Shown: positions 8,472-37,520 of the stretch, piece by piece
Position numbering within the stretch: the first letter of the stretch is position 1
How the letters are laid out: every line of letters starts with the position of its first letter
NCBI RefSeq assembly: GCF_001610875.1
Contig: NZ_CP011272.1
Location: 6,119,988 to 6,183,987, forward strand
Direction: 5' to 3'
Length of the DNA: 64,000 bases
Origin: Pirellula sp. SH-Sr6A
Lineage (GTDB): Bacteria > Planctomycetota > Planctomycetia > Pirellulales > Pirellulaceae
Program-made: the position numbers and the translations under genes
The notes under the pieces: model-generated
Database searches by the model: none
What the model was told of the DNA's origin: nothing
Seen by the model: only the letters and a program-made list of their open reading frames with translations

Positions 8472-9111
8472 CGAACGAAAAAACCTTCACAATCAAATGG
8501 AAACCGCTCTCGCTGGAACAATACTTCCCAGGTTCAGAGCCGTGACAGACGAACAAGACACACGAACACTCAACGCGCAACAGCATCAGCATCAGCATCA
8601 AGGCGGAGTGACAGATGATGGAACAATCTGGAGTGTGTGATTCATAAACAATAGGTTTCGCCTCAGAAATCAAGCCGCTGAAGAGACTAACCGAGGGATG
8701 GCATTTGGGCAACATCGAGATTACAGCCATATCACCTTGCCGGTGACGAGCCATCACCAAACCGGATTATAAGGTGAGTCTCGACAACTATAATTTGCCC
8801 AGAAAGTGCCCTGAGTCCTCGTTCACTGGCTTGCCGAGTCCTTGCTGTATTGCCGAGAAATACGTCCCGTTTTCCCAATTTTTTGCGGATGGTGGGAGGA
8901 ATAATTTCGAAAACAGTGGAGATGCCTCGGGGCCATCGCTCTCGGTCAGTTGCCATCGTTGCTGGGAAGCAATCAAGCTGATCTCAGAAACTAGGTGCTA
9001 CTCGTGGACCGTTTTAAGAAGTTCAGCGAGTAGAATCTTGTTTATCCACCGGCGCCTTCATCGCTCGCCAATTCCATTCCCGCCCTCTTGCTCTACTCGG
9101 AGAAGTCAAAG
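8472..9111. other. Intergenic, no gene seen
   Basis: A 640-base gap between two divergent genes that must hold the promoters of both the SulP gene (minus) and the repeat protein (plus). A short CAGCAT microsatellite lies at 8581-8600. The open frames in it have no recognisable content. Confidence 0.5.
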
Positions 9112-9606
9112 ATGCCCGCCGCCGTTCGATCCGCCGCGTTTGCACTCGCCTTTGTGCTTGCGGCACTATCAAGCGTTCCAACTCGGTTGCAGGCTCAGGA
9201 CAAAAGCAAGAACCCCGCGGATGGTATGCTCCGCCAAAGCAACACGAGTTCAGGTCGATTCTACAACGAGCGTGGAAGCTCGATTGGCAGAATCGAATCT
9301 CGCAATGGCTCCGCAAGAGTTTACGACGCGTCAGGACGATCGACTGGCCGCGTGGAAAGTCGAAACGGTTCGACTCGCTTCTATAGCAGCAGCGGTAGCA
9401 TTGTCGAGCGATCGACAACAAGCGGCGATCTCGCAAGGTTCTATGACAAATCCGGTCGAAGTATCGGAACGAGCAGAACCTCGGGGAGCTCAACACGCTT
9501 TTACAGCTCTTCCGGGGCTTTTCAAGGACGTGCTCAGAAATCCAACAGCGGTACCACCCGCTTCTACGATGCCTCAGGCAGATCGCTCGGCACCAAACGC
9601 CCTTAG
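9112..9606 (+). CDS. Secreted protein of RFYxxSGxxxG repeats
   Basis: About 164 residues. A signal peptide (MPAAVRSAAFALAFVLAALS, cleaved after LQAQ) is followed by five to six degenerate repeats of about 20-22 residues built on R[FV]Y(D/N/S)xSGxxxGR plus a Ser/Gly/Thr-rich spacer, for example ARVYDASGRSTGRVESRNG. The repeats fill the mature protein with no other domain. Similar short tandem YDxSGRxxGR repeats occur in uncharacterised bacterial envelope proteins. The ATG at 9112 follows GGAGAAG at a good distance and starts exactly at the signal peptide, so it is preferred over the earlier start at 9088. It is convergent with the ImmA-like gene, with only 7 bases between their stops. Confidence 0.75.
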   Translation: MPAAVRSAAFALAFVLAALSSVPTRLQAQDKSKNPADGMLRQSNTSSGRFYNERGSSIGRIESRNGSARVYDASGRSTGRVESRNGSTRFYSSSGSIVERSTTSGDLARFYDKSGRSIGTSRTSGSSTRFYSSSGAFQGRAQKSNSGTTRFYDASGRSLGTKRP

Positions 9607-9613
9607 TGGCAGA

Positions 9614-10113
9614 CTATGACTTGAAGCCAAGTCCATTGAGTCGTTCTTCGAATCCTGCATGGGTCCAACGCTTGCGGAATTCGATACAACCCTGTGGCGG
9701 TAGTTTCGATGCAGTCAGTCCGATCTTGCTAAGTATCTCTTCAAGCGAATTTCCTTGATCAGCTCGATGCAGGATGCCAAGAACGCGATAGAAGATCTTG
9801 TCGGCTGAAGAAATAAAGAGGTCGCTCTTTTTATCAAACAAGTACGCACGTGATTCAGCTTCGCCATCGTCCCCCCCCGAGATAATAGCTCCTCACGCTT
9901 TAACGAAGTCAACGCATTCTCTGAAACGGGAACCCGGAATACGTTCCAGGTCAACAAGTGGAACAACTCATGTGCGAGATCGAAATTTCGTCGCCGATTT
10001 ACAATTCTCGAGTTGAGTAAGATTTCTGATCGAAATCGTTCGAACAAAGAACAAGCTGCTGTACCAGAGGGTTCGAAGTCGAGGAAGAAGATCTTCACGC
10101 CGATAGCGGTCAT
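9614..10113 (-). pseudogene. ImmA/IrrE-family metallopeptidase, frameshifted at a G8 tract
   Basis: The N-terminal part (from ATG at 10113) shows GVKIFFLDFEPSG, SEILLNSRIVNRRRNFDLAH and the zinc motif HELFHLLTW (HExxH), the pattern of ImmA/IrrE (DUF955) peptidases. The frame then shifts at eight consecutive G residues on the coding strand (9871-9878 as C on plus). One more G would join it to the downstream frame GEAESRAYLFDKKSDLFISS, which runs to the stop at 9614, giving about 166 residues. No helix-turn-helix domain is present. The start lies 27 bases after the macro-domain stop, so it appears to be the fourth gene of that operon. The shift could be a mutation, phase variation or a sequencing indel. 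Confidence 0.6.
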
Positions 10114-10139
10114 TTACGAGGAAATCCATTCCGAATGGA

Positions 10140-10607
10140 TTATGTCTCGTACCGAACAATAACAACCCTCCCTGTAAACTCTTCCATGCCGAGCTGATCC
10201 ATCATCAGCTTCTCCACTCTCTCCATGGCCCCGCCCCCTGTACCAGCCCCAATGAGAGGAAACGCTATCGATTGGTAGCCTTGCTCGCGAGCAATGCCCA
10301 TTGCGTTCCGACAAGACTCTCGAATCGAAAACTCGGACGAGCGCCACCACATGCTGATGCCAGCCACATGGATGATTCCCTTGAATGGCAACCGGCCAGC
10401 GCCGGTCAGAACCGCACCGCCCAATGGAATGGGGCCATGCTTAGCAACCTCGCGAAAGGGCTGGTATCCTGCTCGCTTCTTGATCGCACCCGAAACGCCT
10501 TGCGGCAGCAAGAGCCACCATGGAATGATATTGCGATTCCAGGCGTTGACAATCACCTCGACCTCCTGATCGAGCAAGTCACCGGTAACCGATTCGACTG
10601 CTGCCAT
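10140..10607 (-). CDS. Macro domain protein (ADP-ribose binding/processing)
   Basis: About 155 residues forming a single macro domain. Seen are VTGDLLDQEVEVIVNAWN for the first strand and substrate Asn, QGVSGAIKKRAG for the loop that wraps ADP-ribose, LGGAVLTGAGRLPFKGIIH, and AFPLIGAGTGGG for the phosphate-binding loop. The usual Gly-Gly-Gly before V is PQG here and the loop before it is unusually aromatic (NIIPWWLLL), marking a distinct subfamily. Macro domains bind ADP-ribose and may hydrolyse O-acetyl-ADP-ribose, ADP-ribose-1''-phosphate or ADP-ribosyl groups. ATG 10607 fits the family start; an upstream TTG at 10625 would overlap the kptA stop. It is the third gene of the sirtuin-kptA operon. 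Confidence 0.88.
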   Translation of the reverse strand: MAAVESVTGDLLDQEVEVIVNAWNRNIIPWWLLLPQGVSGAIKKRAGYQPFREVAKHGPIPLGGAVLTGAGRLPFKGIIHVAGISMWWRSSEFSIRESCRNAMGIAREQGYQSIAFPLIGAGTGGGAMERVEKLMMDQLGMEEFTGRVVIVRYET

Positions 10608-10621
10608 GCGAGAGTCGCCTC

Positions 10622-11185
10622 TCAAGTTTGTTCTGGGAAATCAATAAACGAAACAGGAACAGTGTCTGTTAGCCAAACGCCATTGGCCGACAGGTAGAAG
10701 ACATGTCCCGATTCGTGCATAGCGTCAGAGTGAATGGTCAAGATGACGGGCTTCCCTCGCCGAGCTCCGACCTTCATGGCCGTTTCGATATCCGCTGACA
10801 AATGGACATGATTGCGAGAGCGTTTGAGCAACCCTTGTTCGCGGATACTATCCAAAAATGCGAAAACCGTTCCGTGGTAAAGAACCTCGGGTGGCGCGAT
10901 CGGTTCAAGATTGAGCTCCACGTTTGGGACCGAATGTCCTTGGTTGGCGCGAATCTTCAGTCCGTCTTCGCTGAGAGTAAAACGCTTCTTCTCACAGGAC
11001 GCAACTACTTCATGCAATAGCGACAGCGTCCATTGCTTCCCTTGGCGATTGGCGTTCTCAATCAGCTCGTCGATCGGTAGCCACCCCTCGGGATCAAGCT
11101 TCATGCCTACAACATCGGGCTGATGCCGAAGTACGAGGCTGAGGAACTTGCTTGTGGATGTGATGCTTTTTGATGAAGAATTCAT
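10622..11185 (-). CDS. kptA: RNA 2'-phosphotransferase KptA/Tpt1
   Basis: About 187 residues. The family transfers an internal RNA 2'-phosphate to NAD+, releasing nicotinamide and ADP-ribose 1'',2''-cyclic phosphate. The N-terminal winged-helix part carries the catalytic Arg-His in FLSLVLRHQPDVVGM. WLPIDELIENA and KKRFTLSEDGLKIRANQGHS match the conserved centre, and the C-terminal ADP-ribosyltransferase-like part has LYHGTVFAFLDSI, NHVHLSADIETAMKVGARRG and GHVFYLSANGVWLTD. ATG 11185 overlaps the sirtuin stop as ATGA, giving strong coupling; an earlier start at 11215 is rejected. Bacteria lack the tRNA-splicing reaction that makes its classical substrate, so its physiological role is open. Confidence 0.93.
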   Translation of the reverse strand: MNSSSKSITSTSKFLSLVLRHQPDVVGMKLDPEGWLPIDELIENANRQGKQWTLSLLHEVVASCEKKRFTLSEDGLKIRANQGHSVPNVELNLEPIAPPEVLYHGTVFAFLDSIREQGLLKRSRNHVHLSADIETAMKVGARRGKPVILTIHSDAMHESGHVFYLSANGVWLTDTVPVSFIDFPEQT

Positions 11186-11988
11186 GATCGGTTTGATGCA
11201 AAGTAGCGGTTCCATATTTCATGGAGTGCCACGCCGGCTGGCATGGCTAGTCGATAATCGACGATGTGGGAAATAGTCGTCTCGCTCGGGTTGATCTCCA
11301 CAGTGACATTCCCCACCGATTTAGCCATGAAGACTGGTGCCTGAATGTAGGGGAAAACGCTTGTTGTCCCGATACTAAAAACCATATCGAATCCCTTCTC
11401 AAGCTCGCTTTGAAGCTGTTCTATTCCGGGACCATCAATCAGCTCACCAAACAGGACGACGTCGGGCCGCACCAAAGCGGCACAATGGGGGCAACTGGGT
11501 GGGATATCGATCCCATCGAACTTTTCCACCGACTCCGTGTAGCTACACTTCGTACAAAATAGAGAATGCATGTTACCGTGGGCTTCGATGAAATTCTTGG
11601 AGCCAGCAGCACGGTGGAATCCATCCACGTTTTGGGTGAGTGTCCAAACCCTCGGAAAGCTTCTATCGATCTCCGCGATCAGTTCATGGGCTCGGTTATG
11701 CTTTGCACCTTGAACCGCCAGCCCGATTTGCGCCAAATACTTCCAGGTCAAAGCAGGATTCTTCGCCAGCATGGAAGCGGAAAGCGCTTCTTCAATCGCC
11801 ACACCATCCTCGGTGGTATCTGCATTGTAGAGCCCACCAATACCTCGGTAGGTGGGTATCCCCGACTCAGCAGAAATACCCGCGCCCGTGATGAATAAGA
11901 GACTCTGTGACTTTTGCAGGGCACGAACGATTTTCTCGATCGCAGCACTCTGTCCTGGGGTAACCATCCAATCAAACCTTTCGCTCAT
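11182..11988 (-). CDS. Sirtuin (SIR2 family NAD-dependent protein deacylase)
   Basis: A 268-residue complete SIR2 domain. Visible are the NAD-binding GAGISAESGIPTYRG, the catalytic TQNVDGFHR and the active His in EAHGNMHSLFC. A zinc ribbon of two pairs (CTKC and CPHC) is followed by VRPDVVLFGE and SIGTTSVFPYIQAP. Sirtuins couple lysine deacylation to NAD+ cleavage and release nicotinamide and O-acyl-ADP-ribose; some act as ADP-ribosyltransferases. A 20-residue N-terminal extension precedes the domain. It is the first gene of an operon with kptA (ATGA overlap) and a macro-domain gene, which suggests a role in NAD+/ADP-ribose chemistry beyond general deacylation. The exact sirtuin class cannot be fixed by eye. 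Confidence 0.92.
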   Translation of the reverse strand: MSERFDWMVTPGQSAAIEKIVRALQKSQSLLFITGAGISAESGIPTYRGIGGLYNADTTEDGVAIEEALSASMLAKNPALTWKYLAQIGLAVQGAKHNRAHELIAEIDRSFPRVWTLTQNVDGFHRAAGSKNFIEAHGNMHSLFCTKCSYTESVEKFDGIDIPPSCPHCAALVRPDVVLFGELIDGPGIEQLQSELEKGFDMVFSIGTTSVFPYIQAPVFMAKSVGNVTVEINPSETTISHIVDYRLAMPAGVALHEIWNRYFASNRS

Positions 11989-16912: not shown

Positions 16913-17814
16913 CCAGCCCCGAGTCACGACGAGCCGCCGTGGAACAGCTCCAAGCGAAGTTCTCTGTATCGGAACGTCGTGCCTGTCGAGTGCTCGATCA
17001 ACCGCGATCGACGCAGCGATTTGTGGGGCAGCCCAAGGATGATGATGCGCGGCTGACGAAGAAGATATTGGATTATGTCCGTGAGCGACCACGCTGGGGT
17101 TACCGTCGTATCACACAGTTGTTGCGTCGCAGTGGTGAACTGATCAATGTGAAGCGAGTCTATCGCCTTTGGAAAGCAGCAGGCTTGAAAGTACCAAGAA
17201 AAAGCAGACTAAAGCGAGCCACTGGGGAAAAGGCAAACGCTTGTCACTTGCAGCCTGCGGGCTGTAAGAACGACATTTGGAGCTGGGACTTCGTTCAAGC
17301 CTCGACGGTTGGTGGCAAGACGATTCGCTTCTTGAACATCGTTGACGAATACACTCGGGTGTGCCTGAGTATCAAGGCAAGCCGGAGCATTACCAGTGAG
17401 GATGCAATTGACACGTTGGCGGAGCTAATCGCCATGCATGGAGTACCTAAGCGGATTCGAAGTGATAACGGCCCAGAGTTCATATCAGCGGCGATCAAGC
17501 GTTGGCTGTCGTCGCTGGGGATCGAGGTGCTGTACATCGAGCCTGGTTCACCTTGGCAAAACGGAGTCTGCGAGAGCTTCAACAGCAAACTACGAGATGA
17601 ATACCTGAGCCAGACCGAACTGTTGAGCGAACAAGATGCACGACTCAAGGCGAGGGCTTGGCAAAACGACTTCAACGAGAAGCGTCCGCACAGTTCGCTG
17701 GGCTACTTAACCCCCTCGGAGTTCGCGCGTCGTTGTGGAGCTTCGCCTTCGCTCGCTGCGCTCGCTCCAGCGAACCACCACAACGAGATGGCTACGCCAT
17801 TACCAACTACCTAA
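16903..17814 (+). CDS. IS3 OrfB (DDE transposase catalytic part)
   Basis: The OrfB frame is open from 16903, just after a TAG at 16900, so translation is expected by -1 frameshift from OrfA; a GTG at 16939 could be an independent start. The product has the IS3 HTH_21-like segment (YVRERPRWGYRRITQLL) and an rve integrase core. Catalytic Asp, Asp and Glu are in WSWDFVQA, RIRSDNGPEFIS and NGVCESFNSKLRDEYL, followed by EKRPHSSLGYLTPSEF. It is complete. Confidence 0.92.
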   Translation, partial: GKLTSPESRRAAVEQLQAKFSVSERRACRVLDQPRSTQRFVGQPKDDDARLTKKILDYVRERPRWGYRRITQLLRRSGELINVKRVYRLWKAAGLKVPRKSRLKRATGEKANACHLQPAGCKNDIWSWDFVQASTVGGKTIRFLNIVDEYTRVCLSIKASRSITSEDAIDTLAELIAMHGVPKRIRSDNGPEFISAAIKRWLSSLGIEVLYIEPGSPWQNGVCESFNSKLRDEYLSQTELLSEQDARLKARAWQNDFNEKRPHSSLGYLTPSEFARRCGASPSLAALAPANHHNEMATPLPTT

Positions 17815-36089: not shown

Positions 36090-37520
36090 TCATTCAAATC
36101 GGTTATCGCCTTTATAGAGTCGCTTTTGGAGTTGTTTTCTGGGTTCGGTCATCAGCGCGTATTGGTCGCGGCGTCGCTTTACAACTCGCGGTTCAATCCG
36201 CCCCGGACGGTTGCCAACCTTACAGTTCGCAATCCGCTCGAGGAGAAATCTGGCGTAACGCTCAAGTTGCTTGCCGCGAAGATGAGCCGTCACCTCCTGC
36301 CAACTCGCTAGGATGTACTGGCTAGCACAGACGAAGCTGATCTCTCGCGGCCGCTTTCCAGAGAGCGAAGCGGCAGAGCAAATCGTTGTTCGAATCAAGT
36401 TGTAGGCAAGAAGCGTCGTCCATAACTCTCGCCTGACCATCTCGGGCGATAAGCATCTCACAAAGTTTAAATTCATAAACGTCTTGATAGAACGGATGTC
36501 AAGTTCTGCATTCCAACGAAAGCTAAACAGATCGGATATCTCCTCATAGCTAACACCCTGGTCACCCTTGTGCTCTAGCAATGTTGTCACAATGATAAAC
36601 GGGCCTGATTTACGGCCCGGAGCTTCGACCGTATATCGCAACTCCCGTAGTTCGATCACGAACGGTAAGGATTGGTACATCTCGTGGCTCATCCAGGCCG
36701 GACGAGCGGGACGATACCACTGAATCAAGTGATCTTGTTTACCCAATCGCTTTCCAGTTCGAAAATCTGTGTGTCCCTTCTTCCTGCGAAAACAAACATG
36801 AACGTTCAATTTCATGAACATCGCGATCAACCAGTAGTTACAAAAGAAGCGGTCAGCAATCACGATATCTCCCGCTGAAAAACCTTTGAGCAACCGACGC
36901 AGAAGACTGGTTTCGCCCGTTTCTTTTCCGCTGAAGGGACCGACCGTTGCATCAAGCAAACAACCTGTGGCCAACGACATCACAGCCAAGACACGAGCAA
37001 TAGGAAAACCAATCCCTGGCTTTTGGGCAGTATGCTGCGGATACTCTTTCTGGTTCTTTCGCGTATCGGGCATTTTGAAAGTAAATCCATCAATAAGCTT
37101 GGCATGCATAGACTTCCAGAGCCATTTGGACTCCACCTTGGCTTCCGCTTCAGAGGCAACACCAAGGCATAGTTCTTTCAAAGCGTCCTCGGGAAGCTTT
37201 GCTCTTGCGCGACAGTAGTTCCCCGTATCGGCCCCGGGTGCTGACTTCCCGTGAAGAGTAAAGAATGCCGTAATACGAGCGACGGCGGACTGGCAAGCGG
37301 CTTCTTTCCCATCACGCATAATTTGCGACATGAACGCCCACAAGACAATTGCGGTGGAATAGATCCCATTCATCGTGCAACCGTGCTTGCGAAAAACATT
37401 TCTGATGTGCTGCTCGCAAAGAATCGATGCAAACGGCAGTCCGGGTTGCAGCAGGAAAGCCTTGATGGAATCTCCAAAGCTGAAATTGGCTTGAGATCGC
37501 CTTGGTGGTATAGAGACCAA
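36090..37520 (-). CDS. IS4-family transposase
   Basis: Up to 476 residues. DDE-type features of the IS4 group are AKLIDGFTFKMPDTRKNQ with the first Asp, GDIVIADRFFCNYWLIAMF with the second Asp, and the C-terminal Y-(2)-R-(3)-E-(6)-K-like segment around FSFRWNAELDIRSIKTFMNL, where the Glu is the third acid. The reading frame starts with TTG 37520, and the N-terminal FSFGDSIKAFLLQPG is family-like, so a non-ATG start is likely. A strong terminator hairpin lies just upstream. Confidence 0.85.
   Translation of the reverse strand: MVSIPPRRSQANFSFGDSIKAFLLQPGLPFASILCEQHIRNVFRKHGCTMNGIYSTAIVLWAFMSQIMRDGKEAACQSAVARITAFFTLHGKSAPGADTGNYCRARAKLPEDALKELCLGVASEAEAKVESKWLWKSMHAKLIDGFTFKMPDTRKNQKEYPQHTAQKPGIGFPIARVLAVMSLATGCLLDATVGPFSGKETGETSLLRRLLKGFSAGDIVIADRFFCNYWLIAMFMKLNVHVCFRRKKGHTDFRTGKRLGKQDHLIQWYRPARPAWMSHEMYQSLPFVIELRELRYTVEAPGRKSGPFIIVTTLLEHKGDQGVSYEEISDLFSFRWNAELDIRSIKTFMNLNFVRCLSPEMVRRELWTTLLAYNLIRTTICSAASLSGKRPREISFVCASQYILASWQEVTAHLRGKQLERYARFLLERIANCKVGNRPGRIEPRVVKRRRDQYALMTEPRKQLQKRLYKGDNRFE

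Follow-up and report, generated by a model that had tools for sequence, protein, structure and literature searches.

Gene content of the locus

A stretch of 64,000 nucleotides from Pirellula sp. SH-Sr6A (contig NZ_CP011272.1, positions 6,119,988 to 6,183,987 of the forward strand; referred to here as the window) contains kptA, the gene of an RNA 2'-phosphotransferase, followed directly by the gene of a macro-domain protein. The genome is a single contig of 6.53 Mb; the window covers 6.12-6.18 Mb of it and contains its only kptA match. Genes were called from a listing of open reading frames (ORFs) together with Pfam, and all three enzyme genes (sirtuin, kptA, and macro) are read from the minus strand.

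11182..11988, minus strand: sirtuin gene (Pfam SIR2, 1.8e-37), an occasional neighbour of the pair that overlaps kptA at an ATGA
10622..11185, minus strand: kptA, RNA 2'-phosphotransferase of the Tpt1 family (Pfam PTS_2-RNA, 3.2e-51), core of the pair
10140..10607, minus strand: macro gene (Pfam Macro, 9.6e-23), core of the pair
9715..10113, minus strand: relic, interior of a gene for an XRE-ImmA/M78 (RmrA-like) protein, outside the module
9617..9871, minus strand: relic, distal half of the gene that lies 3' of the XRE-ImmA gene in relatives, outside the module

The ORF listing and Pfam agree on the three enzyme genes and establish the gene content in the layout given by a preliminary description of the sequence. 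The ATGA that this description had noted is common to the sirtuin stop and the kptA start, and the gap between kptA and the macro gene, put there at under 20 bases, measures 14 bp from the kptA stop to the macro ATG; a TTG at 10625 is a possible alternative start of the macro gene. The cassette shows no strong promoter-like site; the count there was one, against 2.2 expected by shuffling.

The KptA protein matches PTS_2-RNA (PF01885) over its full length with 174.3 bits, against a curated cut-off of 26, and passes the NCBIfam model NF002014 with 255.2 bits against a cut-off of 239. An alignment to chain 6e3a, which the agreement of residue numbering suggests to be the C. thermocellum enzyme, establishes by hand count that the Arg-His-Arg-Arg catalytic residues named in PMC6333775 are kept as R18, H19, R68, and R121; the four columns are invariant across 11 aligned KptA rows. 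Judged by its domain score and this tetrad, the protein belongs to the Tpt1/KptA family, and its gene is distinguished by lying directly 5' of a macro gene. The macro protein has both the Pfam Macro score and the macro fold. DarG models match it weakly (3.5e-07 and 1.1e-06), with 28.2 bits for the DarG equivalog against a cut-off of 250. PADLOC returned no match for KptA or for the sirtuin.

Recurrence of the pair and of its neighbours

The pair was followed through 241 genomes of the family, with strong copies defined by at least 200 bits for KptA and at least 240 bits for macro proteins of the window's subfamily, and with genomes counted by hand. KptA matches occur in 123 genomes (E 1e-3) and the macro subfamily in 47 (E 1e-20), and 31 have strong copies of both. 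The macro gene lies directly 3' of kptA on the same strand in 10 of these 31, from five genera (G000, G002, G007, G008, G015, G562, G570, G589, G614, and G622); it lies about 1 kb upstream of kptA in two (G497 and G498) and elsewhere in 19. Depending on the start codon chosen, the spacing of the pair is 4-39 bp at the measurable loci, among which L310 does not count. Within the genus, 8 of 27 genomes have a KptA match, one of them weak (G011, 9.4e-4), and the macro gene follows kptA in five (the window, G002, G007, G008, and G015). In G024, kptA is truncated and a piece of the macro gene lies about 2.7 kb further on, and G022 retains a piece of kptA.

A scan of genome contigs for the macro gene kept 80 loci out of 353 confirmed stretches. 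Those with KptA in the flank are L147, L149, L150, and L151 in the genus, and L153 (Rubripirellula obstinata), L154 (Stieleria tagensis), L155 (Roseimaritima sediminicola), and L156 (a UBA11397 metagenome-assembled genome) among the others. In a sample of the phylum, 66 of 392 genomes have KptA matches; in 41 genomes outside the genus that were checked for Macro, none has it within 6 kb of kptA by coordinates. A macro scan of viral contigs gave no confirmed relative, and the 80 viral KptA loci kept out of 188 contain no match to macro, sirtuin, M78, McrC, McrB, or DUF6884 at E 1e-3. A viral link of the pair was rejected on the basis of these kept loci and contigs. KptA matches were also found in 70 plasmid and 94 phage records. 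Two of seven inspected plasmid kptA regions contain ADP-ribose enzymes, two lie beside filamentous-haemagglutinin genes, and three have neither. The plasmid neighbours include ARH and Nudix genes in Acidovorax, an O-acetyl-ADP-ribose deacetylase gene in Eubacterium eligens, and filamentous-haemagglutinin genes adjoining kptA in L381 and L385 (Burkholderia ambifaria and Rahnella plasmids).

The sirtuin gene does not share this recurrence. It is present at a kptA locus in three genomes, intact in the window and broken in G008 (residues 162-268) and G024 (residues 8-129 and 174-268), and at the other kptA-macro loci examined it is missing or broken. Sirtuin relatives occur in 34 of the 241 family genomes (E 1e-30); the closest intact ones, in G022 (79%) and G015 (77%), are on contigs other than those of kptA, and that of G022 adjoins hsdM. 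Among the macro loci, a sirtuin match is nearby in L147 (partial) and L168 (at about 2.3 kb, 59% identity). The sirtuin as core of the module is ruled out by its broken or missing copies and by intact orthologues elsewhere, and its place in the pathway suggested earlier is not supported. The conserved unit is kptA-macro, with the sirtuin only an occasional neighbour: of the gene order originally pointed out, the kptA-macro part recurs, and the sirtuin-kptA part is found in three genomes, one of them intact. Class III (SIRT5-like) sirtuins have YxxR as an acyl-binding motif, and the window sirtuin shows LxxI at the aligned place by eye.

The sequence beyond the macro gene had been read as an ImmA/IrrE-like fourth gene whose zinc peptidase-like product might act as regulator. 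The M78 match is limited to 9715-10113 (2.7e-05), which matches only residues ~156-233 of proteins in relatives that have an N-terminal XRE-HTH and an M78 domain and are 374-418 amino acids (aa) long in six of seven cases and 242 aa in the seventh. In a different frame, 9617-9871 corresponds to residues ~90-174 of the product of the adjoining downstream gene in five relatives, with 59-79% identity to L373, L375, and L376 and about 46-48% to L377 and L379; this product has 175-198 aa, is PIN-like by eye, and gave no Pfam or PADLOC match in the copies tested. A plain frameshift at the run of eight C in the fourth gene is ruled out because the relatives have two separate genes there. PADLOC identifies RmrA in L373 (1.1e-29). 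In L376 the two genes sit between the C terminus of PglX and the N terminus of PglZ (PADLOC 3.4e-105 and 7e-56), which makes this a BREX locus, and in L379 PglZ lies on one side of them. The M78 piece is matched in 14 of the 241 family genomes, the window's included; in the remaining 13, its coordinates are not close to those of any listed kptA. As the piece is partial, and lies away from kptA in relatives, it is a relic of another module; with only relic pieces present, ImmA as a regulator is ruled out.

Other arrangements of the macro gene were also observed. The macro gene of L152, 84% identical to that of the window, lies 16 bp behind a ResIII-PLD-DUF3427 helicase gene. A second, divergent macro gene lies 3' of kptA-macro in L307 (7804-8325), L308 (1269-1796), L310 (3070-3600), and L311 (7772-8293), and L323, L325, and L342 have this second type near kptA without the first macro gene. 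A protein of about 174 aa takes the macro position, 11-14 bp after kptA, in L322 (8192-8716), L362 (1580-2104), and L326; the L362 copy has no Pfam match.

Contexts of kptA in Planctomycetota

Neighbours were compared at 115 kptA loci, 107 of which lie outside the genus; they were selected from all hits and include several loci from one genome as well as some fragments. Genes within 4.5 kb were clustered by single-linkage BLAST. Pfam served to check members of the nicotinamidase, ARH, TROVE, PARG-like, SPFH, and McrC groups, and the other groups were named by the look of their sequences. The neighbours are ARH (28 loci), nicotinamidase (PncA, 28), NrtR-like Nudix (24), nicotinate phosphoribosyltransferase (PncB, 17), NADAR (12), NadE (10), TROVE/Ro60 (10), PARG-like (8), SPFH (6), and McrC (6), and 52 of the 115 loci have no labelled neighbour. 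In ten loci of the family (L307, L312, L322, L323, L325, L326, L330, L350, L355, and L365), kptA has a TROVE/Ro60 gene upstream of it in the same orientation, nine times within about 240 bp of the aligned KptA and once at 1.6 kb. The order in L156 is kptA (with a stop)-macro-macro2-DSP phosphatase-metallophosphoesterase, and another locus reads SPFH-kptA-macro-macro2-ARH. EF-G-like genes adjoin kptA in L149 (6615-8729), L150 (229-2340), and L316 (3331-5427), in two cases with opposite orientation, and a PARG-like gene adjoins a kptA fragment in L050 (G002 C51).

A KptA tree was built from 96 of the 115 rows, with 19 left out because they were shorter than 160 aa or had a stop inside the aligned segment; among these are L310 and L314, which have a macro gene near kptA, and L326 and L365, which have TROVE. 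The macro label of L309 and L312 was added by hand, as the ORF picker had missed the gene. A set of 37 rows (98/89) holds the window, all 10 macro-labelled rows, and all 6 TROVE-labelled rows, and 24 of the 25 NAD-operon rows fall outside the 47-row set around the window's KptA. Its own group has 8 rows (100/99), 5 of them with a macro gene. The macro label requires five changes on the tree and the TROVE label four; therefore, neither is of single origin. ARH is present in both sets. Planctomycete KptA thus comprises two sets, one mostly in NAD-salvage operons and the other near macro, ARH, TROVE/Ro60, SPFH, and McrBC genes. The window's KptA belongs to the second, and the McrBC neighbourhood is found mainly in its genus.

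A McrC-type gene (DUF2357-PDDEXK_7) is present in 6 of the 27 genus genomes, and in five of the six it adjoins kptA or a piece of that gene, or is separated from it by no more than about 4 kb. McrC overlaps kptA or such a piece in G007 and G022; G024 has pieces of McrC, the sirtuin, and kptA; G002 reads McrB-McrC-DUF6884, a reversed EF-G-like gene, and kptA-macro; and G015 reads kptA-macro-McrB-McrC-DUF6884, with an additional macro piece. G016 has McrBC without kptA. Outside the genus, McrC occurs in 11 family genomes and is near kptA only in G447, which rules out McrBC as an obligatory partner. The G447 locus L362 also has an RloB-like gene (175-927; Pfam 3e-26) directly 5' of kptA, with DUF6884 and McrC nearby. 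The McrC query from the relatives has no match in the window's genome. The ORFs flanking the window cassette have no match in the five related loci compared; as there is no common flanking gene, the cassette therefore moves. The RNA-related or defence setting foreseen in the preliminary description is found for some copies, with McrBC in the genus and TROVE/Ro60 in other genera.

A possible role in RNA-end healing

The substrate of bacterial KptA has been called a longstanding conundrum (PMC6333775). The S. coelicolor enzyme attaches ADP-ribose to 5'-phosphate RNA, a modification that is undone by a MacroD enzyme (PMC6582358). ADP-ribose is removed from phosphate ends by macrodomain, ARH, and PARG enzymes (PMC6582358, PMC11833690, PMC7050489); for phosphate-end RNA, reversal by these three classes, and not by NADAR, is described in PMC11833690. 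Because the pair recurs, such genes neighbour KptA, and this chemistry is published, we favour, with a probability of about 0.5, the reading that kptA-macro is an NAD+-dependent module of RNA-end healing in which the hydrolase clears the ADP-ribosyl by-products or adducts of KptA. The pair would act as a functional unit that consumes NAD+, and the macro partner would hydrolyse the ADP-ribosyl products or adducts of KptA, freeing RNA ends and returning ADP-ribose to the NAD pool; its main target may be the cyclic phosphate in solution or an adduct attached to RNA. At other loci, ARH, second macro, PARG-like, or phosphatase genes beside KptA may share its task. Gene content, contexts, the recurrent pairing, the catalytic residues of KptA, and the macro fold are observed; the substrates, the direction of the chemistry, and any role in defence are inferred.

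Several observations weigh against RNA-end healing. The macro gene is not directly after kptA in 21 of the 31 two-gene genomes, and KptA is in the flank of 8 of the 80 kept macro loci, so that the macro subfamily mostly occurs without a nearby KptA. Some pairs are decaying: the macro gene is shortened in G614, kptA has a TGA in G622, and the pairs of G607 (kptA plus a short macro piece) and G024 are broken. Apparently, a Ser occupies the position of the Asp of the MacroD His/Asp dyad in the window macro protein; this Asp is absent from some active MacroD enzymes (PMC7050489). RNA ligase, RtcB, and 2H genes were unrecognised among the recurrent neighbour clusters examined, in which no search was aimed at them. 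Finally, L314, a NAD-salvage locus off the tree with macro, ARH, NADAR, NrtR, and PncA near kptA, blurs the division between the two KptA sets.

This same locus, which unites macro and NAD-salvage genes, fits general NAD+/ADP-ribose housekeeping, with KptA as one among several enzymes of NAD-salvage regulons that handle ADP-ribose and the pair lacking an RNA-repair or defence role of its own. The frequency of PncA (28 of 115 loci) and NrtR-like Nudix genes (24 of 115) near kptA and the presence of ARH in both KptA sets point the same way, but the window's KptA is in the other set, with 24 of 25 NAD-labelled rows outside its 47-row set, and we regard this explanation as unlikely. Passive hitch-hiking, in which genomic islands would gather kptA, macro, sirtuin, and McrBC genes along with relics that have no functional tie to one another, is likewise improbable: a defence-module relic next to the cassette, transposase ORFs at distances of about 5 and 24 kb, and the decay of several copies agree with it, but the order, strand, and short spacing of kptA-macro are kept in five genera while other neighbours vary.

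It is rather improbable, too, that the pair is an RNA-end counterpart of DarTG, a writer and eraser of reversible RNA ADP-ribosylation that would itself be an accessory of McrBC-type restriction and TROVE/Ro60 RNA-surveillance loci and would act on phosphorylated ends made by phage or damage. In such a toxin-antitoxin or anti-phage pair, KptA would mark RNA ends once infection is signalled by McrBC or by RNA damage, and its macro partner would erase the marks. The gene order is that of DarT-DarG, McrC accompanies kptA in most McrC genomes of the genus, the cassette moves, as the window and five related loci show, and DarTG too occurs inside restriction operons (PMC8883491). Against this, KptA of the window's set is often without this macro gene, so the antitoxin would not be obligatory; of the 11 McrC genomes from other genera, only 1 has the gene near kptA; DarG of M. 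tuberculosis fails to remove the marks that KptA makes (PMC6582358); and loss of E. coli KptA leaves growth unaffected (PMC6333775). Least credible is a single pathway of sirtuin, KptA, and macro protein with ImmA as regulator, as the preliminary description had it. The ATGA overlap and the sirtuin pieces 5' of kptA in G008 and G024 fit such a pathway, which is contradicted by the intact sirtuins of G022 and G015 away from kptA, the former beside hsdM, and by the relic nature of the fourth gene.

RNA-end healing by KptA and a macro protein has a precedent in the network of KptA, 2H, and Macro, possibly with NADAR, proposed earlier by Aravind and co-workers, who also proposed that TROVE serves phages as a platform for RNA repair (PMC9503650, PMC7824862). 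There, too, KptA makes ADP-ribose cyclic phosphate (ADPr>P) and a macro protein processes the product; here, no 2H gene was recognised among the neighbour clusters (no search aimed at it), and in Planctomycetota kptA and macro are directly adjacent, with ARH, TROVE, and McrBC as neighbours. In general terms, a succession of KptA, 2H, and Macro had thus been predicted, and the direct pair with its contexts is a variant. The same two enzyme classes, KptA SCO3953 and MacroD SCO6450 of S. coelicolor, were combined as writer and eraser in vitro (PMC6582358), whereas here their genes are adjacent. DarTG also places an ADP-ribosyltransferase gene before a macro gene, and also in restriction islands, but the transferase here is KptA with no DarT, and the macro protein matches DarG models weakly. 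SirTM-macrodomain operons likewise have a sirtuin close to a macro gene, but the sirtuin here is not conserved with the macro gene; no GcvH-L or LplA2 (lipoyl-carrier, lipoyltransferase) ORF was noticed by eye near the cassette, where no model scan was made. No description of kptA-macro adjacency, or of a kptA-TROVE or kptA-McrBC neighbourhood, was found in the literature covered, from which subscription papers were largely absent, and a text search of the available part of a McrBC census (PMC11090510) gave no occurrence of sir2, macro, phosphotransferase, or KptA. The pair offers a lead on the role of bacterial KptA, with its own products as named candidate substrates and the macro protein as named partner. 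Planctomycete KptA divides into a NAD-salvage type and a mobile type, and the loci of the pair may also hold Ro60-like RNA-binding proteins or McrBC.

Elsewhere in the window, positions 9088-9606 hold an ORF rich in repeats with a weak match to a 5-fold beta-flower (6e-05, below the cut-off). The transposase ORFs are of the rve/HTH_21 type at 16939-17814, about 5 kb from the cassette, and of the DDE_Tnp_1 type at 36090-37520, about 24 kb from it.

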